Source of the DNA: a virus
Virus record (IMG/VR): IMGVR_UViG_3300033388_001919
Location: 1-39,005 of that record
Length of the DNA stretch: 39,005 nt
Reading direction: 5' to 3' (one strand)
The position numbers and the translations under genes were made by a program. Of this stretch, positions 2,862 to 39,005 are shown in pieces. Under the pieces are notes generated by a model. It ran no database searches. It was not told where the DNA came from and saw nothing but the letters and a program-made list of their open reading frames with translations. The first letter of the stretch is position 1. Every line of letters begins with the position of its first letter.

Positions 2862-3044
2862 TCAAGTGATCACTGCCAAAGGATCATCATCTTTAATCCT
2901 GCTATCGTATAATTTCTCATCAACCTTGTGCCTGTCTACCTTATCGTAGCCTGCCGTGGTTATTTTCTGGCTATCTGCATCAATGCCGTGTTTCTGGCAA
3001 TACATTTCCCAGATAGTTAGATGGGGCTTTTCGCTGGCTTCCAT
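2862..3044 (-). CDS. Hypothetical protein (60 aa)
   Basis: Start ATG 3044 overlaps the upstream stop as TAATG and has AAAGGAG eight bases upstream, inside the previous gene. Sequence MEASEKPHLTIWEMYCQKHG then a charged C-terminal half. No family recognised. Confidence 0.65.
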   Translation of the reverse strand: MEASEKPHLTIWEMYCQKHGIDADSQKITTAGYDKVDRHKVDEKLYDSRIKDDDPLAVIT

Positions 3045-3223
3045 TACTTAGCTCCTTTTATCCGCTTAAGGTTCTTTCGCTGCCTTTTCTCTTCTGCTAA
3101 TTTCAAATGTTCAATATCTTTTTCTGTTAATCTTTTTATTGGCGACTTTCCAGTTACGACATCAATCATATGAGCGTCTGCATAAGATAGAGTAATAGCA
3201 AGCATAGCTTCAGAGCGTTTCAT
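3044..3223 (-). CDS. Hypothetical basic protein (59 aa)
   Basis: Starts MKRSEAMLAITLSYADAHM and ends in a lysine/arginine-rich helix (EEKRQRKNLKRIKGAK). Both its start and its stop overlap neighbouring genes as TAATG, strong evidence for coupled translation. No function assigned. Confidence 0.65.
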   Translation of the reverse strand: MKRSEAMLAITLSYADAHMIDVVTGKSPIKRLTEKDIEHLKLAEEKRQRKNLKRIKGAK

Positions 3224-5836: not shown

Positions 5837-6543
5837 GTCACGTCTCTCCACGATTCATTTTGCAATGATTTTCTAAATTCTGAATTAGCATCTGATTTAT
5901 TAGTTCCGGTCTTCAATGGAAATAGCCCTGTGTACCCGTTACTCATTGAAAACTCGATTATCTGCTTTTGTTCTGCATGGTTGCCCATTTCGATTATCTG
6001 GTTGATAGCTATTTTCTCACCGCGTGGAGTTAGCTTTTTAATCTTTGCTTCCCTTCGATGCTCAATCCACATAAGCCATGCTTCTTTATTTAATCCATCT
6101 GGATGAACAATAATTATTTCCTGCTGCTTTTTCTTTTTTGCAGGAATAGGTTTTATCTTTTCTTTTTCACTATCACTACCATTATCACTACCATTATCAC
6201 TACCATTATCACTACCATTATCACTACCATTATCACTATCGGCTTTTTTGGGATTGCTTGGGTTGCCAGATAACCCACTGGGTTTATCCTTATTAGGTGG
6301 CCTGCCTCCCTTTAAGCCATTGATTCTATTGCGTTCAACTATAGATTCGTACTTTTTAGCGTCACGTATGAATTGGTTTTTGAAAGGCGAGAATGCTACT
6401 TTTACGATAGGCGATGGCGTAAATTCATCATCAGAATGATACGCCTTCATTGCTCTAAGTAGTTCGCCGCATTGCTCATCAGTGAGGTCATTGATAACGT
6501 CAAGGCTATCGAGGTGCACTATGAATGAAGTTTTATTTTGCAT
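5833..6543 (-). CDS. Replication initiator (O-like) with internal tandem repeats
   Basis: A 236-residue protein. The N-terminal part (FIVHLDSLDVINDLTDEQ... then SPFKNQFIRDAKKYESIVER and NRINGLKGGRPPN) matches the DUF6291-type phage replication domain. A low-complexity linker follows with the tetrapeptide SDNG (or NGSD) repeated five times, then a basic stretch PAKKKKQQ, then a C-terminal domain. The start is the ATG at 6543, after GGTGAT. In lambda-like phages the origin lies inside the initiator gene; the repeats here are a candidate for that. Confidence 0.72.
   Translation of the reverse strand: MQNKTSFIVHLDSLDVINDLTDEQCGELLRAMKAYHSDDEFTPSPIVKVAFSPFKNQFIRDAKKYESIVERNRINGLKGGRPPNKDKPSGLSGNPSNPKKADSDNGSDNGSDNGSDNGSDNGSDSEKEKIKPIPAKKKKQQEIIIVHPDGLNKEAWLMWIEHRREAKIKKLTPRGEKIAINQIIEMGNHAEQKQIIEFSMSNGYTGLFPLKTGTNKSDANSEFRKSLQNESWRDVT
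6171..6238. repeat. Five 12-bp tandem repeats inside the O-like gene (possible origin)
   Basis: The unit TATCACTACCAT (+ strand) occurs five times without a break from 6171 to 6230, followed by a partial sixth unit. It encodes the repeated SDNG peptide on the minus strand. Repeats within the initiator gene are reminiscent of lambda iterons, so this could be the replication origin; alternatively it is only an acidic flexible linker. Confidence 0.9.
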
Positions 6544-13642: not shown

Positions 13643-13805
13643 TTATGGTTATGAGAAAAAAATTACTAATTTTATCGACGGCAGCTGCAATGGCGTTTAT
13701 GTACTATTTGAGGTTGGCGCTTACGGTGGCAACGAAAGGTATGAAGGTACTTATTTTAAAGAAGAGCTTGAACGAGTAGTGCTTACCGCTAACGGGTGGA
13801 CTTAG
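13629..13805 (+). CDS. Hypothetical protein (58 aa) abutting the first attC-like site
   Basis: Starts MRLDSYGYEKKITNFIDG and continues through VYVLFEVGAYGG. Its frame is much more protein-like than the competing frame in the same stretch. The TAG at 13803-13805 lies three bases before the first attC box, the same gene-attC arrangement as in the array, so it may be the first gene of the array or a flanking gene. Confidence 0.6.
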   Translation: MRLDSYGYEKKITNFIDGSCNGVYVLFEVGAYGGNERYEGTYFKEELERVVLTANGWT

Positions 13806-13807
13806 AG

Positions 13808-13891
13808 TTATAACTGGTTGAGTTAAGTGGTGAGCCACGGGTTTTCGTGGCGAGTCCAAGCCGATAGGCGACCTTGAACGATTTGTTATAT
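13808..13891 (-). repeat. attC-like site 1
   Basis: Boxes TTATAAC (13808-13814) and GTTATAT (13885-13891). Inner arms GAGTTAAG and CTTGAACG pair except for one extra G in the right arm (CTT-G-AAC). The central hairpin GCCACG/CGTGGC is perfect. The arms closely resemble those of aadA-type cassettes read in reverse. Confidence 0.8.
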
Positions 13892-13910
13892 TTTAATTGG
13901 AGATACTGAT

Positions 13911-14201
13911 ATGAGTGAGCGTGGAATGACTGAGTGTATATTGAAAACTGGACTTGAAGAGGCGGTAAAGAAAGACGAAGCCAGAGTCGATTCATTAAAA
14001 TCTGGCGTAGCTAATGGTTATTATATAAACCTATGGCTAAAAGGAATCGCAGTCGCACTTGTTGAAGCAAAGGAAATTTTGCCGAAGCGACTTTGCAAAA
14101 TAAAAAAGGATGCGGATGACTTGCCTAAAAGCGATAACGAACAATATGAAGATGGCTTTATGGATGGCGTTAAATACGCTTTAAACGAAATAAAATCGTG
14201 A
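13911..14201 (+). CDS. Cassette 1 gene, hypothetical (96 aa)
   Basis: Ribosome site TTGGAG before the ATG. MSERGMTECILKTGLEEAVK, then a helical part and a C-terminal EDGFMDGVKYALNEIKS. The motif DGFxDGxKYAL near the end recurs in the site-4 gene as EGFKKGVEDAIYKL, suggesting related domains. No family recognised. It ends 12 bases before attC-like site 2. Confidence 0.65.
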   Translation: MSERGMTECILKTGLEEAVKKDEARVDSLKSGVANGYYINLWLKGIAVALVEAKEILPKRLCKIKKDADDLPKSDNEQYEDGFMDGVKYALNEIKS

Positions 14202-14213
14202 AGCGAGACAGAA

Positions 14214-14298
14214 ATATAACATTTTAGCTAAGTTGGCGCATGATGAGCCAGCAGAAACACATTTAAGGTTGGCGCTCCACTTGAGCGCATGGTTATAA
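14214..14298 (-). repeat. attC-like site 2
   Basis: Boxes ATATAAC and GTTATAA. Arms AGCTAAGTTGGCGC and GCGCTCCACTTGAGC pair with one extra G on the right. Nearly identical to site 5 and closely related to sites 3 and 7, so these share a source. Confidence 0.88.
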
Positions 14299-14319
14299 AC
14301 AAATTACAGGAAAACGATT

Positions 14320-14442
14320 ATGAATGACTTTAATAAAGAAATACTACGAATACAGAGAAAGCATTTAAAAAAGAAGCTTTGGGATTTGTTTATGGTTGGA
14401 TGTATTATTTTTATAGTTTATGAGTTGGCTACAGGTTTATAA
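14320..14442 (+). CDS. Cassette 2 gene, small membrane protein (40 aa)
   Basis: MNDFNKEILRIQRKHLKKK is followed by a single hydrophobic segment (FMVGCIIFIVYELATGL) that ends the protein. Its TAA (14440-14442) lies inside the first box of attC-like site 3. A basic N-terminus and terminal helix suggest an inner-membrane anchor with a cytoplasmic head. Confidence 0.6.
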   Translation: MNDFNKEILRIQRKHLKKKLWDLFMVGCIIFIVYELATGL

Positions 14443-14521
14443 CATTTTAGCTAAGCCGCGCCACTGGCTGATGCAGAAAACACATATTTGTTTCCGCGTC
14501 GGCTTGAGCGCATTGTTAGTG
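14437..14521 (-). repeat. attC-like site 3
   Basis: Boxes TTATAAC and GTTAGTG. Left arm AGCTAAGCCG pairs with right arm CGGCTTGAGC save one extra G. The stop codon of the preceding gene is in the left box. Confidence 0.87.
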
Positions 14522-14540
14522 GTTTTAACGGGAGAATGTA

Positions 14541-14825
14541 ATGATTATTGATTGGAAAGAATTTGAAGATAAAGACCATGTTACGGCATGGCTAGTTCTT
14601 GAAGCTATGAGTGGGGTAGGTATTGAGAAGTTTGGAGACTTCGACAGCTCCGCTCTTGACGTTGAAATGAAGGTGAACGGGATAAGTGTTGATGTAATTT
14701 CTGTGCTTGAGTTTCTTCAAAAGCAGCTTACTGGTATTGAGCGGGAAGGCTTTAAGAAAGGCGTTGAAGATGCTATTTACAAGCTACAGGAAAATATTGA
14801 AGCTGTTTGCGCTGTTGACCACTAA
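14541..14825 (+). CDS. Cassette 3 gene, hypothetical (94 aa)
   Basis: MIIDWKEFEDKDHVTAWLVL, acidic and helical, with a C-terminal IEREGFKKGVEDAIYKLQEN. GGGAG precedes the ATG. Its TAA (14823-14825) is part of the attC-like box CACTAAC. Function unknown. Confidence 0.65.
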   Translation: MIIDWKEFEDKDHVTAWLVLEAMSGVGIEKFGDFDSSALDVEMKVNGISVDVISVLEFLQKQLTGIEREGFKKGVEDAIYKLQENIEAVCAVDH

Positions 14826-14900
14826 CGTTGAATTAAGCGGTAAACCGCTTTTTGGTTTGTCCGGTGCGTTTTTTGCACGAACTTGAGCGCCTTGTTAGGC
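14820..14900 (-). repeat. attC-like site 4
   Basis: Boxes CACTAAC and GTTAGGC, the latter the classic core. Arms GAATTAAG and CTTGAGCGC with one extra G on the right; an internal hairpin GTGC/GCAC at the tip. Confidence 0.82.
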
Positions 14901-14910
14901 GCAGGAGAAC

Positions 14911-15177
14911 ATGATGGAATTATTTAATAAAGAAGATATTTACGACAATGAAATAAGCCCTTTGATGCAGCAAATTATTGAGATTTGCAACAAACATAAG
15001 ATGCCAATGATTGCCTCGGTTACTTATGAGAACAACGAAGAGCTAGGGCCTGGTCGTTGCACTACTCTTCTAAATGGATTTGAGGATAGAGCCGATGATG
15101 CAAACCAGAAAGCCGCTAAGGTTATAAAAAACGGTGGTCATGAGACGTTCACGATGGCCATTAGTAAAAGCGCCTAA
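14911..15177 (+). CDS. Cassette 4 gene, hypothetical (88 aa)
   Basis: AGGAG lies close to the ATG pair at 14911/14914. MMELFNKEDIYDNEISPLMQ, then PMIASVTYENNEELGPGRCT and a C-terminal GGHETFTMAISKSA. Looks like a small globular protein. Its TAA is within the box GCCTAAC of site 5. Confidence 0.65.
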   Translation: MMELFNKEDIYDNEISPLMQQIIEICNKHKMPMIASVTYENNEELGPGRCTTLLNGFEDRADDANQKAAKVIKNGGHETFTMAISKSA

Positions 15178-15257
15178 CATTTTAGCTAAGTTGGCGCGTG
15201 ATGCGCTGACAGAAAACACATTTAAGGTTGGCGCTCCACTTGAGCGCTTGGTTATAT
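15172..15257 (-). repeat. attC-like site 5
   Basis: Boxes GCCTAAC and GTTATAT; interior almost the same as site 2 (ATTTTAGCTAAGTTGGCGC ... CACTTGAGCGC). One unpaired G in the right arm. Confidence 0.88.
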
Positions 15258-15277
15258 TATTACCAGGAGGATTAAAA

Positions 15278-15454
15278 ATGAAGAAGAAATTTAAAATTAT
15301 GCACCCTAACGGCAAGCCATATTTGCCACCACCTAAAAAAATGGTTGTGATGAATGGGCAAGGTGTTTTCTTTCTGTATAGCGGTGAGGAATATTATCCG
15401 TACATTCAAGAGTTATCAAAGGTTCTTCCAAAATATGATGTTGTTTGGAAGTGA
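15278..15454 (+). CDS. Cassette 5 gene, hypothetical (58 aa)
   Basis: Strong AGGAGG site before ATG 15278. MKKKFKIMHPNGKPYLPPPK, basic then aromatic (GQGVFFLYSGEEYYPYIQ). Ends at a TGA one base before site 6. Unknown function. Confidence 0.63.
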   Translation: MKKKFKIMHPNGKPYLPPPKKMVVMNGQGVFFLYSGEEYYPYIQELSKVLPKYDVVWK

Positions 15455-15540
15455 ATATAACGCCTGAGGCAAGCTGAGGCACTATGCCGTAACAGGAAAC
15501 ATATATTTGTAACACCGTCTGCTTGGGCGATTTGTTATAA
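15455..15540 (-). repeat. attC-like site 6
   Basis: Boxes ATATAAC and GTTATAA. Inner arms GGCAAGC and GCTTGGGC pair with one extra G on the right. The rest of the interior differs from the other sites, so it has a distinct origin. Confidence 0.78.
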
Positions 15541-15557
15541 ACAAAAAGGTGAATAAT

Positions 15558-15752
15558 ATGAAAAAAGTATTTTTAGTGATTAGAGAATATGACACGGAGG
15601 GCTATCGGATAGCTGGCATCTATGAAAAGAGAGCTGATGCGGCTATGGCTTTACTTAAAAACAATGAGGATGGTTACGGAATGACTGGCGAAAATAGGGT
15701 AGAGGAAGTTGAGCTAAATAGATATTTTGATATAGGCGATATGGGTTTATAA
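15558..15752 (+). CDS. Cassette 6 gene, hypothetical (64 aa)
   Basis: ATG 15558 follows AAGGTGAA. MKKVFLVIREYDTEGYRIAG is a beta-alpha-beta pattern typical of very small ferredoxin-like or ACT-like folds; then KRADAAMALLKNNED, a helix. TAA is inside the left box of site 7. Unknown function. Confidence 0.63.
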   Translation: MKKVFLVIREYDTEGYRIAGIYEKRADAAMALLKNNEDGYGMTGENRVEEVELNRYFDIGDMGL

Positions 15753-15831
15753 CGTTTAGCTGAGTTGGCGCATGATGCGACAACAGGAAACAAGTATATG
15801 GTTGGCGCTCCACTCTAGCGCCTTGTTATTA
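15747..15831 (-). repeat. attC-like site 7
   Basis: Boxes TTATAAC and GTTATTA. Arms TTTAGCTGAGTTGGCGC and GCGCTCCACTCTAGCGCC pair over most of their length; a relative of sites 2 and 5. Confidence 0.85.
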
Positions 15832-15853
15832 ATTTAAACATGAGGTATTTAAG

Positions 15854-16054
15854 ATGCAAGATGAACTGATGGAATACGACCCTGTAACAGGCGAAAGAAA
15901 GCCTTACCCTAGCCACGCCGAGCAATACAGAAAATACCACGGCCTGACTGCGTGGCTTTACAACCCGTGGACTGGCAACTTTAGAGATGCCCGAGATATT
16001 GGTGGCGATGTGCAGGGAAATGGCATTGTTGGCGATGAACCGCTTAAGGGTTAA
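15854..16054 (+). CDS. Cassette 7 gene, conserved phage-type protein (66 aa)
   Basis: MQDELMEYDPVTGERKPYPS, then AWLYNPWTGNFRDARDIGGD. The NPWTG-x-R-x-x-x-DIG-x-D pattern is familiar from small phage and prophage proteins of unknown function. The TAA is the first part of the box TAATAAC. Confidence 0.68.
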   Translation: MQDELMEYDPVTGERKPYPSHAEQYRKYHGLTAWLYNPWTGNFRDARDIGGDVQGNGIVGDEPLKG

Positions 16055-16135
16055 TAACGTGTTTATTAAGCTGGCACATGAGAATGCTGGGCAAGGCCGA
16101 TATGGTTACTGCTCAGCTTGAATTTATTGTTATAC
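16052..16135 (-). repeat. attC-like site 8
   Basis: Boxes TAATAAC and GTTATAC. Arms TTATTAAGCTG and CAGCTTGAATTT pair with one extra G on the right. Interior nearly identical to site 10. Confidence 0.85.
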
Positions 16136-16145
16136 GGGGTTTAGC

Positions 16146-16343
16146 ATGGAATATGTACAGAGAGCGATATATAAAGCAGGGCATAGGCTTGACGGGATGA
16201 TGCACGATAGAGTGCATGTTTCGGATGGAGGCGAGACACTATGCGGGAAAACTCTTGGCGAGATGTGGTATATAACAGGCGACGATAAGAGGCATAAAAA
16301 GATTGTCACTTGTAGAGAATGCGCTAAAAAATATGGCGTATAA
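16146..16343 (+). CDS. Cassette 8 gene, zinc-ribbon-like protein (65 aa)
   Basis: MEYVQRAIYKAGHRLDGMMH, then ETLCGKTLGEMWYIT and IVTCRECAKKYGV. The LCGK ... TCxxC spacing with upstream histidines fits a single zinc site. Similar small zinc proteins occur in phages. TAA is within the box GTATAAC of site 9. Confidence 0.68.
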   Translation: MEYVQRAIYKAGHRLDGMMHDRVHVSDGGETLCGKTLGEMWYITGDDKRHKKIVTCRECAKKYGV

Positions 16344-16404
16344 CTTTTGAGTTCAGCCGTGAACGTAGCGTAGCGGAGTGAATCCGCTGGAATGATTGTT
16401 AGGC
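16338..16404 (-). repeat. attC-like site 9 (short)
   Basis: Only 67 bp: boxes GTATAAC and GTTAGGC. Inner arms GTTCAGC and GCTGGAAT pair with one extra G on the right; tip hairpin GCGGA/TCCGC. Confidence 0.78.
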
Positions 16405-16433
16405 TGTTTATTGTGAATAGTTTAAAATAACAC

Positions 16434-16461
16434 TTGTTTCTTTTAAATAGTTGTGTATAAT
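16434..16461 (+). promoter_or_regulatory. Promoter inside cassette 9
   Basis: -35 TTGTTT (16434-16439), 16-base spacer, perfect -10 TATAAT (16456-16461), 38 bases before the ATG at 16499. Most integron cassettes lack a promoter, so this one can be expressed anywhere in the genome or array. Confidence 0.65.
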
Positions 16462-16498
16462 AGAACCCATCGAAGCAATACAACCACAGGACGAAACA

Positions 16499-16669
16499 AT
16501 GAATACTAAAGAAAAAGGCGAACTAATCGGACAAATCGTACAACAGCTAAGAATTAGCGCTGTTGCTCACAATGATTATCATTTTTGCGAAGGCGATACA
16601 TTTTTCTCTTTAGCCTTCAAAACTGATGAAGAGATAACAAATATAGCTAAGATTGCTGGGGTCTTATGA
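16499..16669 (+). CDS. Cassette 9 first gene, hypothetical (56 aa)
   Basis: MNTKEKGELIGQIVQQLRIS, then FCEGDTFFSLAFKTDEEITN. The ATG follows AGGACG and the predicted promoter. Its TGA overlaps the next gene's ATG (ATGA). The pairing with a downstream helix-turn-helix-like gene and its own promoter resembles a two-gene addiction or regulatory module, but no toxin family is recognisable. Confidence 0.6.
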   Translation: MNTKEKGELIGQIVQQLRISAVAHNDYHFCEGDTFFSLAFKTDEEITNIAKIAGVL

Positions 16670-16827
16670 CCCCCTCACAACAAGCCAAAGCCGCAGGGCT
16701 TAAAAACCTGACACAGGTGAGTGTGACTACAGGCGTGAGCCTTAACACCCTTACAAACTGGCACAGGGATAAGCCTGAGTTATTTAGAATAGTGCTGCTT
16801 GGGTGTCTGGCTGATTTGAGAGCCTAA
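16666..16827 (+). CDS. Cassette 9 second gene, helix-turn-helix-like (53 aa)
   Basis: MTPSQQAKAAGLKNLTQVSV followed by TTGVSLNTLTNWHRDKPELF reads as a helix-turn-helix of the kind used to bind DNA, similar to short phage regulators. It overlaps the upstream gene by four bases, and its TAA lies in the box GCCTAAC of site 10. It may regulate its own promoter. Confidence 0.65.
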   Translation: MTPSQQAKAAGLKNLTQVSVTTGVSLNTLTNWHRDKPELFRIVLLGCLADLRA

Positions 16828-16905
16828 CGTGTTTATTAAGCTGGCACAGGAAAGCGCTGAGCAAGGCCGATATGGTTACTGCTCAGCTTGAATTATTGGT
16901 TAGGT
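16822..16905 (-). repeat. attC-like site 10
   Basis: Boxes GCCTAAC and GTTAGGT. Interior is almost identical to site 8 (TTATTAAGCTGGCAC ... GCTCAGCTTGAATT), one extra G on the right. Confidence 0.86.
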
Positions 16906-16926
16906 ACACTTACGGAGTGATTAGCG

Positions 16927-17163
16927 ATGAAAAGTAGATATAGAATTATAGAAGACGACTTTAACGGCCACGAGGTTCAGGTGAAGCGATGGTGGTTTCC
17001 TTTCTTATGGTCGCAGTGCTGGAACGAAGGGCCTGCCAACACCTTCCCAACGCTAGATGAGGCGAAACGCTTTGCAGAGGCTAAGGCGAAAGGTATACCG
17101 TGGAGAAACGGAAAAGCTAAGAAGCGAAAAGTTATTACTGAATATAGTGATAGCAGTACCTAA
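16927..17163 (+). CDS. Cassette 10 gene, hypothetical (78 aa)
   Basis: MKSRYRIIEDDFNGHEVQVK, then WWFPFLWSQCWNEGP and TLDEAKRFAEAKAKG. A small mixed alpha/beta protein with several tryptophans and a basic tail (KAKKRKV). TAA is within the box ACCTAAC of site 11. Confidence 0.67.
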   Translation: MKSRYRIIEDDFNGHEVQVKRWWFPFLWSQCWNEGPANTFPTLDEAKRFAEAKAKGIPWRNGKAKKRKVITEYSDSST

Positions 17164-17291
17164 CGTATTAATTGAGGGGCAAACCGGAGAATATTATGAA
17201 TAGACATATAGGCCACGCAGAAGGTTGTAATAACCCAAAGTGCAGAGGAAGCTGCGACGTAGGTTTGTCCAGCTCGAATGCCTTGTTATGT
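17158..17291 (-). repeat. attC-like site 11 (long, contains a gene start)
   Basis: Boxes ACCTAAC (17158-17164) and GTTATGT (17285-17291). Arms ATTGAGGGGCAAACC and GGTTTGTCCAGCTCGAAT pair with an extra base on the right (ATT-GAG against CTCGAAT). The loop of about 75 bases holds a ribosome site and the ATG of the next gene. It is the longest site in the array. Confidence 0.72.
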
Positions 17292-17420
17292 ACCGTTTGT
17301 AATGGTACTGGCTTGTACGAGCAGTGTAGTGATGGCATGTGCGTTGATGTGGCCTGCGATTGCCCAGAAGGCGATAAGCGGGTTGAAGAGTGGCTTGAAA
17401 AGCACCCAGAAGATAGATAG
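17196..17420 (+). CDS. Cysteine-rich protein whose first third is encoded by attC (74 aa)
   Basis: Starts with ATG 17196 after CGGAGAA. The first about 32 residues (MNRHIGHAEGCNNPKCRGSC...) are encoded within the loop and right arm of attC-like site 11. The rest contains LCTVCNGTGLYEQC and VACDCPEG, a DnaJ-like CxxCxGxG zinc motif. Eight cysteines in all suggest two zinc sites. The reading frame passing through an attC arm is unusual; the short upstream part could be recent. Confidence 0.62.
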   Translation: MNRHIGHAEGCNNPKCRGSCDVGLSSSNALLCTVCNGTGLYEQCSDGMCVDVACDCPEGDKRVEEWLEKHPEDR

Positions 17421-17431
17421 TACATAACAAG
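17420..17431. other. Terminal simple recombination box at array end (attI-like candidate)
   Basis: GTACATAACAAG here is the exact reverse complement of CTTGTTATGTAC at 17282-17293, the right end of site 11. It is a single core without a stem. If the array is read on the minus strand, as the attC polarity suggests, this is where the attI-type site should be. A perfect inverted repeat GACTT-5 nt-AAGTC follows at 17441-17455. Confidence 0.45.
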
Positions 17432-19730: not shown

Positions 19731-21119
19731 ATGCCAGTAGATACAAAGACGCAACCAGTTAAAGACGTAGAGCCAGACTTGGAGTTAGTGAAGGCGCTTT
19801 GGGGTGGAACGCAAGCAATGCGGGACGCTGGTGAGAAATATTTACCGAGAGAGCCTGGAGAGGAAAAGAAAGACTACGAGAATCGACGCGACAGATCAAC
19901 TCTTACAAATGTCTTCAAAAAGACGGTAACAACAAATGTTGGTCGCATCTTTGAAGACAAGGTCACAATAAATGATCCCAATTTTGCTGAGTTCGATGAG
20001 AATGTTGATGCAGAAGGTAGGAGTTTTCATCGTTTCGGCTATGACATTTCAAAACTCGCATTGCGCGATGGATTAAGATTCATCCTCGTTGAAGCTCCAG
20101 AGGCAGAAGGAGTAAAGACAAAGGCTGATGAGAAAGTAGCCGGTATAAGACCTTATTTTGTCGATGTAGATCGCAGGCAGTATCTAGGCGCAAAGGTCGA
20201 GATAATAGGTAGCCAGAAAATAATCACACAGTTCAGGATGATGGAGACCGTCTTTGAAGGCGGTGATGAGTTTGTACAGAAAGCGGTTGAGCAGATCAGA
20301 GTTATTGAGCCTAACAAGGTTCGATTGTACAGGAAGGCAGAAAATGGCGACTGGAAACTGCATCAAGAAATAGAGACCTCTATCCCATTCGTCCCTATTG
20401 TTCCTATTTACGCAGACAGAGACAATTACCTAGAATCCCCGCCACCGCTGATGGACTTAGCGTGGCTGAATACCGAGCACTGGCAAAAAATGTCAGACCA
20501 CAACAACATTCTGCACGTGGCTAGAGTGCCTATTCTGCATTGGGCTGGATACCAGTCCATGCAAGATGCTGATGGTAACAATGTTGATTTAACAATTGGC
20601 CCAAATACGCTGGCAAAATCTTCTAATCCTCAAGCCACGCTTGCATACACGGAGATTAAGGGAGATGGCGCGCTAGATGTAGGTCTTAAAGATACCGAAG
20701 CTCTAGAGGCTCGCATGGTCGCCTCTGGCGCAGAGTTTGCAGCACCTAAGCGAAGTGGTGATATTACCGCGACAGAAAAAGCTATTGATGAGAGCGGTGA
20801 CATATCAGAGCTTGCAGCATTCGCGCAGAACCTCAAAGACTCGCTAACCAATGCCGTGCAGATGGTTGCTGATATAACAAAGGTGAGTTTTAACGGCGAG
20901 ATAACCATGCCTACTGATTTGGGTATCGTTGTTACGCCCGTCAGCATTGAGCAATTGGTTAAGATTCGAGCAATGGGTGATATTAGTCGTGAGGGGATGT
21001 ATGAGGTGATGAATGATGAATGGGACACTGATCTAGATGCAGAGAAAGAGCAGGATAGATTGAGTGTTGAACAGCCATCATTGGTTAAAGAGCCTGCTGG
21101 CGTAGATGCCAACAGTTAA
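19731..21119 (+). CDS. Portal protein (DUF4055 type)
   Basis: A 462-residue protein with the pattern of DUF4055 portals: ALWGGTQAMRDAGEKYLP near residue 25, ENRRDRSTLTNVFKKTV, and a central WLNTEHWQKMSDHNNILHVA. It follows terL by four bases and precedes the head protein with overlap, the canonical portal position. It would form the dodecameric DNA gate. Confidence 0.87.
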   Translation: MPVDTKTQPVKDVEPDLELVKALWGGTQAMRDAGEKYLPREPGEEKKDYENRRDRSTLTNVFKKTVTTNVGRIFEDKVTINDPNFAEFDENVDAEGRSFHRFGYDISKLALRDGLRFILVEAPEAEGVKTKADEKVAGIRPYFVDVDRRQYLGAKVEIIGSQKIITQFRMMETVFEGGDEFVQKAVEQIRVIEPNKVRLYRKAENGDWKLHQEIETSIPFVPIVPIYADRDNYLESPPPLMDLAWLNTEHWQKMSDHNNILHVARVPILHWAGYQSMQDADGNNVDLTIGPNTLAKSSNPQATLAYTEIKGDGALDVGLKDTEALEARMVASGAEFAAPKRSGDITATEKAIDESGDISELAAFAQNLKDSLTNAVQMVADITKVSFNGEITMPTDLGIVVTPVSIEQLVKIRAMGDISREGMYEVMNDEWDTDLDAEKEQDRLSVEQPSLVKEPAGVDANS

Positions 21120-22206
21120 CGACAACCTGGCAGACAGCGCAGCCCGCCATACAGTCTATGGCCTGAGATGGTCTAAAGGCACGTATCGCAAGCGGCTAAA
21201 CCTGATTGATACGGTAATAGCTGATCTAACCTATCAGCTTAATATTCGCGCGCCTGCAAGCGGGTCAATCACAGAAGCAAGGCTCATGGCTATGCTCGCC
21301 AATGCTAAGGAGTCGAGCGCGTCATTATACTCTGCGTTAAATTCTGCCGTTACAGGCGATTACAGAGAGCTTGCTGCATTTGAATCAACATCCCAAGTGG
21401 CGCAGATTCAAGCGGCCTATCCAATCGAGTTAAAACTAAACACAATCCCAGCGGCTCAAATACACTCTGCTGCAATGTCTGAGCCATTCAGAGGGCGAGT
21501 GCTCAAGGATTGGTTCAAAGGTCAAGAGATAGGCTTTAGAGAGAAGTTATCCGCTGAGTTGCGCATAGGATATGTTGAAGGCCAAAGCTTAGGCCAGATT
21601 ACATCAAGGATGCGTGGTGTTGGAGATATCGCTAAGAAAGACCTTGAGACGGTTATTAGGACAGCCACATCTCACATGGCTTCACGGGCAAGGGCGCAAG
21701 TGGTCGAGGCTAATGAAGAGCTTTTCAAGGGTGAGGAGTGGTCGAGTACGCTTGACGGCAGAACCTCAGCCATTTGTATAGATTTGGATGGAAAACTATT
21801 CCCCGTTGGTAAAGGTCAATATCCGCCAGCCCACTTTTCGTGTAGGAGCAGCCGTATACCAATAACTAAATCATGGGAAGAGTTAGGCTTTGATGGTGTT
21901 GACGAAAATCAGCCGTTATCTAAGCGGCCTTTTGTCGCTGACACGCGCAGAGTCAAGGATATACCAAAATCGCAACGAGACGCGGTTATAGGCACGACCA
22001 GCGCACGGACATATAGCGAGTTCGCAGCTAATCAGCCATTGTCATTTATGCAGGACGTGGCTGGAGATTACAGGGGTGAGCTAGCTAAAAAAGGCACGTT
22101 ACCGCTCAATGCTTTGGTTAGAAATGGCCAATGGATGACTATCTACCAGATACAGGCTAGCGAGTCGAAAGCTATTAAGGCAGCTGTTAAAAAGGCGTTT
22201 GGATAG
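21106..22206 (+). CDS. Minor head protein, Mu F/SPP1 gp7-like
   Basis: 366 residues. The C-terminal signature WSSTLDGRTSAICIDLDG, then YPPAHFSCRSSRIPI is diagnostic of phage head morphogenesis (Mu F) proteins, delivered with the portal into the procapsid. Its start overlaps the portal stop by 14 bases. Confidence 0.88.
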   Translation: MPTVNDNLADSAARHTVYGLRWSKGTYRKRLNLIDTVIADLTYQLNIRAPASGSITEARLMAMLANAKESSASLYSALNSAVTGDYRELAAFESTSQVAQIQAAYPIELKLNTIPAAQIHSAAMSEPFRGRVLKDWFKGQEIGFREKLSAELRIGYVEGQSLGQITSRMRGVGDIAKKDLETVIRTATSHMASRARAQVVEANEELFKGEEWSSTLDGRTSAICIDLDGKLFPVGKGQYPPAHFSCRSSRIPITKSWEELGFDGVDENQPLSKRPFVADTRRVKDIPKSQRDAVIGTTSARTYSEFAANQPLSFMQDVAGDYRGELAKKGTLPLNALVRNGQWMTIYQIQASESKAIKAAVKKAFG

Positions 22207-22230
22207 TGTATAATAACAATAATCAATGAC

Positions 22231-22356
22231 TATTTTTAGAGAATGTATGCAGGGTATGCCAGCCGGTTAGAGCCGGTAAATATTGCAAAATCGTACTGAT
22301 TATTCAGACCAAAAGCGAACAAAAGTCAGAGCATATGCGTATGTTCTCTAAAAATA
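22231..22356 (+). ncRNA. Structured RNA candidate closed by a 20-bp stem
   Basis: Bases 22231-22250 pair with 22337-22356 over 20 contiguous positions if G-U pairs are allowed; the three non-Watson-Crick positions are all G-U. Inside are GCCGG-6 nt-CCGGU at about 22264-22279 and CUGA-UUAU-UCAG at about 22297-22308. G-U pairs in a stem point to selection on RNA. It fills the gap between the head protein and a zinc protein. It is not a tRNA or a known motif that I recognise. Confidence 0.6.
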
Positions 22357-22363
22357 TGAATAT

Positions 22364-22546
22364 ATGCTTAAACTAATAAAAGGCGATAACAAGCCGCTCC
22401 CCATAGTCGAATGCCCCAAATGCGGCGGCGTGTCATTTATCGAGGTGAGGCATACAAAGCACAGGACTGGTAAGCGAGTGAGCAAGGGCGTGAAAGCGGA
22501 TGCTTGCGTGACGTGTTTAATTAAAGGTGAGTTGGTTACGATATGA
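22364..22546 (+). CDS. Small zinc-ribbon protein (60 aa)
   Basis: CPKCGG at residues about 17-22 and CVTC near the C-terminus form a four-cysteine zinc ribbon. Between them is a basic loop RHTKHRTGKRVSKG. The stop overlaps the next ATG. Its position in the head operon is odd for such a protein; a regulator or cofactor is possible. Confidence 0.7.
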   Translation: MLKLIKGDNKPLPIVECPKCGGVSFIEVRHTKHRTGKRVSKGVKADACVTCLIKGELVTI

Positions 22547-26114: not shown

Positions 26115-26120
26115 CTAGAC

Positions 26121-26148
26121 GGGGCGGGTTAATCTCGCCCCTCTTTTT
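26121..26148 (+). terminator. Rho-independent terminator after the capsid genes
   Basis: GGGGCG (26121-26126) pairs with CGCCCC (26136-26141), followed by TCTTTTT. It ends or attenuates the head transcript before the connector and tail genes. Confidence 0.8.
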
Positions 26149-26159
26149 AGAGAATTATT

Positions 26160-38855: not shown

Positions 38856-39005
38856 TCAAACAGTATCATCAAGCCATTCCGTGAAAATATGCCAAAGCCC
38901 TACTGGGTATAAGATAGATATTGCTGTAAATATAGCCCAATCTTCCAGATCATAATCACTCGGTTCAAATGGCATGGGTTTGTAGTTCCTGGTTGATCTA
39001 ATCAC
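38856..39005 (-). CDS. Small two-helix membrane protein, 3' part (start is at 183)
   Basis: The other end of the gene at 1-183. The last 11 codons (HIFTEWLDDTV) run from 38891 to 38859 with TGA at 38856-38858; bases 38892-39005 repeat codons already listed in the left copy. The intact frame across the join supports a circular genome. Confidence 0.75.
   Translation of the reverse strand: MIRSTRNYKPMPFEPSDYDLEDWAIFTAISILYPVGLWHIFTEWLDDTV
38892..39005. repeat. Direct terminal repeat, right copy
   Basis: Identical to bases 1-114. See the left copy. As a likely assembly overlap it should be trimmed once to give a 38,891-bp circle. Confidence 0.95.

Follow-up and report, generated by a model that had tools for sequence, protein, structure and literature searches.

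The late leader of lambda-type phages runs from pR' to tR' and corresponds to the '6S' transcript. The put RNA of HK022 is an RNA-only antiterminator of about 70 nt, which consists of two stem-loops and lies downstream of the early promoters (PMC9378689). The Pas sRNAs are described as ncRNA morons of E. coli prophages (PMC13192938), and GOLLD and ROOL as non-coding RNAs on phages or other mobile elements (PMC12286853). The abiF-associated RNA belongs to the AbiF system (PMC12373285).

The RNA described here, found in four members (the window copy, L203, L205, and L214), resembles put RNA in size and in being structured, phage-encoded, and protein-free; its L214 copy lies in a termination-control region. 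It differs in its whole-element closing stem, its branched fold, and its varied genomic positions, and identity with put RNA was rejected because helices P1 and P2 close the whole element, in contrast to two open stem-loops. The L214 copy is also like the lambda late leader in lying between Q-like and lysis genes and ending at a terminator, whereas the other three copies do not follow Q. A lambda-type late leader was rejected as well, since the position fits L214 only; the window copy lies between head genes, and the L203 copy is antisense to the late operon. With Pas and GOLLD/ROOL, the RNA shares the character of a mobile-element ncRNA gene without a fixed gene neighbor. It differs from them in having no Rfam match and in its four helices with compensatory changes, and at about 100 nt it is far smaller than GOLLD/ROOL. 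The likeness to the abiF RNA is that of a phage-encoded structured RNA for which a defense or anti-defense role is possible; the RNA described here differs in lacking an Rfam match, and no Abi protein was recognized among the neighbor genes examined.

A cmscan search of the window, L203, L205, and L214 against 4,227 Rfam 15 families returned sub-threshold hits only, with no credible match at the element, and the assignment to a new family absent from Rfam is supported. ARAGORN made no call of a tRNA or tRNA-like structure and no Rfam tRNA family matched; the ideas of a bacterial Y RNA, a tRNA, and put RNA were all rejected by the class tests. A scan of the window for intrinsic terminators gave no terminator-like site at the element.

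The window is the whole stretch of DNA analyzed, 39,005 nt, corresponding to positions 1-39,005 of IMGVR_UViG_3300033388_001919. Positions 1-114 are repeated exactly at 38892-39005 as a 114-bp direct terminal repeat, so the contig probably represents an entire phage genome, either circular or circularly permuted. About 10 small ORFs at 13800-17430 are separated by attC-like sites of roughly 57 to 80 nt with TAAC...GTTA-type ends, a region that looks like an integron-type gene-cassette array in a phage genome; phage integrons have already been reported (PMC9892861). A 12-bp tandem repeat, CATTATCACTAC, occurs in several copies at 6156-6250.

The element lies in a 157-bp gap between a head-morphogenesis gene and a small Zn-finger-like ORF (Table 1). 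Its two arms form 21 consecutive pairs on the + strand, 18 Watson-Crick and three G-U, the longest stem of the window; the runner-up has 16 pairs, and when the whole window was dinucleotide-shuffled 12 times, the longest stems had 14 to 18 pairs. The initial annotation had described a closing stem of 20 bp, and computation recovers the stem with a length of 21 pairs; its observations that all three non-Watson-Crick places are G-U and that the gap holds two small internal hairpins were borne out. Folded as RNA, positions 22231-22356 reach -42.2 kcal/mol (z = -6.2; 0 of 200 shuffles). The minus strand of the same interval folds less well (z = -4.6), because the G-U pairs turn into A-C there. In a palindrome decaying by transitions, we estimate that all three mismatches would be G-U on the + strand with a probability of about 1/8. 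The G-U argument is thus weak by itself, and homologues were therefore sought.

BLASTN searches with the gap or the L203 copy against phage, plasmid, and E. coli collections returned nothing, and window DNA compared with 369 gammaproteobacterial-class genomes gave chance-level matches only. A scan of IMG/VR with an 18-nt motif from inside the element instead matched one contig, L203, which is 84% identical to the window element over 76 nt (E value, 3e-19) and has a closing stem wholly unlike that of the window in sequence that nevertheless still pairs. A covariance model built from the window and L203 matched two of 392 genomes of one order, G710, in which the L203 locus resides, and G755, which has an independent member, L205 (76 bits; E value, about 1e-16). 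L214 (84 bits; E value, 3e-23) came from a further motif scan and a three-member model. L205 and L214 were thus each detected by a model built without that member, while coding or chance matches of the models scored at most 29 bits. Over sets of 392, 163, 46, 248, 200, and 190 genomes (some searched twice), only G710 and G755 matched the RNA models. The family is known from four members, which are 69 to 81% identical to each other over all columns and 73 to 85% in the central part; the window holds a single copy.

Several other leads were rejected. A scan with the stem-end pattern gave 96 unrelated matches, including repressor operators and coding sequence; weak matches of model R2 in L206 to L208, L238, and L269 lie inside coding sequence or run against it; and L262 and L047 match no better than chance. 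The hairpins of L167, L015, and L123 (123 to 129 nt) showed no BLASTN sequence similarity to the element and no match to covariance model R1. The L167 hairpin (3034-3156) is 123 nt long, with a perfect 20-bp stem and a TATAAT box just upstream, and its loop contains D and T arms like those of a tRNA (GAG-TATTGGTTAG-CTC and TTAGG-TTCAAAT-CCTGA, respectively); neither ARAGORN nor Rfam made a call, and it may be a phage RNA that resembles a tRNA or a Y RNA. The elements L015 1189-1317 and L123 282-409 are 128 to 129 nt long and branched inside, each closed by a stem of 22 bp, and one of them directly follows two tRNA genes; their architecture is like that of the window RNA, their sequence unlike it. 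Within the late gene cluster of the window, an intrinsic-terminator-like hairpin at 26116-26155 (GGGGCG...CGCCCC-TCTTTTT) is followed by the 12-mer TTTTTAGAGAAT, which also forms a P1 arm; this recurrence of the arm motif, at 26144, is near chance level.

The four members were aligned (alignment A6), and 99% of the cells are paired under the consensus fold, compared with only 27 to 35% when the partners are slid. Two-sided compensatory changes occur in 10 of 24 base pairs (12 cells), a result reached in 0 of 500 shuffles, and RNAalifold recovered the same helices independently from the four members. The covarying helices are P1, whose core covaries across the four members, P2, P4, and P5. Across members, P3 reads GCCGGU-nnGA-GCCGGU, and ACCAAA and ACAAAAGUC are likewise invariant; within the ACAAAAGUC strand, an additional mini-hairpin, AC-AAAA-GU, is possible. 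The closing helix is 21 bp in the window and 5 to 6 bp in the other members, the outer 15 bp being confined to the window. The thermodynamic stability of L205 is unremarkable (z = -0.3).

Table 1. Features of the window element, its surroundings, and its homologues (window positions unless a homologue is named)
Feature	Position	Strand	Remarks
Head-morphogenesis gene	21106-22206	+	phrog_241; stop at 22206
Possible sigma-70 promoter TTAAAA-16-TATAAT	22187-22214	+	10/12 match; ends 16 nt before the hairpin
P1 closing helix, 5' arm	22231-22251	+	Inner 22246-22251 conserved P1; outer 22231-22245 window-specific extension
Conserved core, covariance model positions 1-98	22245-22342	+	cmsearch models R1/R2/R3, 111-114 bits in the window
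GGG bulge	22252-22254	+	Precedes P2 5' strand
P2, 5' strand	22255-22259	+	Two compensatory pairs
P3 hairpin GCCGGU-UAGA-GCCGGU	22262-22277	+	Paired letters invariant in 4/4 members
A-rich joining strand AAATATTGCAAAA	22278-22290	+	Largely conserved, alignment A6
P4, 5' strand UCGU	22291-22294	+	Pairs with GCGA 22315-22318; U-A to C-G compensatory change
P5 hairpin CUGA-UUAU-UCAG	22296-22307	+	3/4 pairs compensatory among four members
Internal bulge ACCAAAA	22308-22314	+	ACCAAA conserved in 4/4 members
P4, 3' strand GCGA	22315-22318	+	Partner of UCGU 22291-22294
Invariant ACAAAAGUC strand	22319-22327	+	Alignment of four members
P2, 3' strand	22331-22335	+	Pairs with 22255-22259
P1 closing helix, 3' arm	22336-22356	+	Inner 22336-22341 conserved; outer part window-specific
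Small Zn-finger-like ORF	22364-22546	+	phrog_15916; ATG at 22364
Homologue L203	828-926	+	cmsearch
Homologue L205	1501-1597	-	cmsearch
Homologue L214	7971-8076	-	cmsearch

The element is a conserved folded RNA, in the + strand sense, in four unrelated phage settings, and that it represents a structured RNA family is virtually certain. The initial annotation's proposal of a new structured RNA holds: homologues with the compensatory changes described above occur in three unrelated (pro)phages, and Rfam has no match. Selection on the RNA, which it had read from the G-U pattern, is upheld mainly by the homologues and less by the G-U pattern; the evidence that carries weight is comparative.

The window copy lies between head genes, on the same strand as both, with no terminator after it. 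The L203/G710 copy neighbors trpG, where an HK97-type prophage ends, and is convergent with the late operon, whose genes (TerL, portal, capsid, tape measure, and tail fibers) are on the opposite strand. The L205/G755 copy lies in the chromosome of a bacterium, within a small phage-like remnant, between a glutamine synthetase gene and one that, on our own reading of the ORF, is presumably sulfatase-like. The L214 copy, carried by a (pro)phage of 55 kb, is flanked by a gene for a Q-like antiterminator (phrog_79) and by the endolysin/spanin lysis genes. No neighbor gene is common to the four members. Terminators adjoin the RNA in two of the four: an intrinsic terminator directly follows it in L205 (1502-1483), and intrinsic terminators, one of them at 7970-7956, do so in L214; both are separate hairpins beyond the RNA. 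Promoters are weak in all members checked (the window, L205, and L203). The candidate in the window is only suggestive, as the region should hold just as many sigma-70-like sites of that quality by chance, and a search of the + strand of L203 found none.

The nearest relatives of the window phage, identified through TerL and head-morphogenesis searches, are L146, L181, and L182. Identity to the window phage in L146 and L182 is 60% for the portal, about 70% for the capsid, and 58% for the small ORF; in L181 it is 72% for the capsid and 65% for the small ORF. The small ORF overlaps the head-morphogenesis gene in each of these relatives, leaving neither gap nor element, and in Caulobacter phage DMCA the corresponding gene pair is separated by 9 bp. 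In L181 and L172, the space that separates the portal gene from the head-morphogenesis gene appears, by eye, to contain small ORFs and not this RNA. The initial annotation had counted absence from relatives against the element, and absence is literally what the three nearest relatives covering the site show; three unrelated (pro)phages nevertheless carry the RNA. Since the RNA moves among unrelated phages, its absence here shows mobility and not lack of function. The simplest reading of these sequences is that the element was probably inserted in the lineage of the window phage.

The main rival to a free-standing RNA, which we regard as rather unlikely, is a cis-acting leader that would control the genes directly downstream by antitermination or attenuation or by ligand sensing. 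The L214 copy, which follows the Q-like gene and precedes terminators and lysis genes, speaks for such a leader, as do two further features: the terminator that L205 carries immediately behind the RNA, and joining strands that are A-rich, invariant, and reminiscent of a compact aptamer-like fold. The downstream genes nevertheless differ in all four members, and the window copy is not followed by a terminator. Nothing follows the L203/G710 copy in the sense direction. Directed toward the 3' end of the late operon and convergent with it, this copy cannot act as a leader. An effect on the translation or mRNA stability of the small Zn-finger-like gene in the head operon is improbable. The 3' arm stops 8 nt ahead of the ATG of this gene, which lacks a Shine-Dalgarno sequence, but of the 36 window start codons listed, roughly one in three is likewise without a clear one; the nearest relatives keep the gene pair, with overlapping frames, without the element; and no other family member adjoins this gene. 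Because the neighbors differ in every member, control of the next gene and packaging, both suggested in the initial annotation, are disfavored.

The small size, the multi-branch fold, and the invariant unpaired A-rich strands could also befit a catalytic RNA of a new kind, self-cleaving or other; no Rfam ribozyme family matches, conservation is highest in a hairpin, and we consider this reading very improbable. Barely credible is a function of the palindrome as DNA, as a MITE-like insertion, a recombination site, or a packaging signal. The element is absent from the corresponding site of the relatives, so that it probably arrived by insertion, and its arms start and finish with TA. However, the homologues have the loop in common while their arms are wholly different yet paired, none of the 96 pattern hits with the stem ends is homologous, the window holds only one copy, and the G-U pairs occur on one strand only. 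A MITE or inverted-repeat insertion was rejected, as the pattern scan gave no copies with shared terminal repeats and the arms differ among members.

The explanation that we favor, at somewhat better than even confidence, is an undescribed phage small-RNA family, a free-standing moron with a compact fold acting in trans. The preservation of the fold in unrelated contexts, two direct terminators, and one copy opposing its late operon indicate that the RNA is probably trans-acting and free-standing, and action in trans, taken by itself, is fairly likely. The fold comprises a core of ~100 nt with P1, the GGG bulge, P2, the invariant GCCGGU hairpin P3, A-rich joins, and a P4-P5 arm with the ACCAAA bulge. 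The RNA gene would be separately transcribed or cut from a longer transcript, and most likely the compact fold would bind a host protein or complex rather than control a neighbor gene. We infer from the invariant hairpin and the A-rich joins that protein binding or a compact tertiary fold is likelier than an antisense seed; a protein-binding take-over or anti-defense role, the latter already raised in the initial annotation, is proposed tentatively.

In the window, the free-standing RNA would be embedded in a presumed polycistronic head mRNA, without a terminator of its own. Its P1, stretched to 21 bp, would be a duplex of RNase III substrate length, and cleavage of the head mRNA could free the RNA. 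Such a release is plausible because a 21-bp duplex is a natural substrate of RNase III, although we hold it as a possibility short of an even expectation. That all of this combines into one take-over or anti-defense RNA class, in which a protein-binding moron of ~100 nt, set in the window copy within a 21-bp helix that RNase III could cut, would be delivered by the head mRNA, is speculative and rather doubtful.

To our knowledge, few phage-encoded structured RNAs are known. Several of those examined closely (pRNA, anti-CRISPR RNAs, and put RNA) opened a mechanism. The four-member covariance model makes wider searches and probing of the new family immediately possible. Its moves among head, lysis, and end-of-prophage positions suggest a useful function that is independent of its neighbors.
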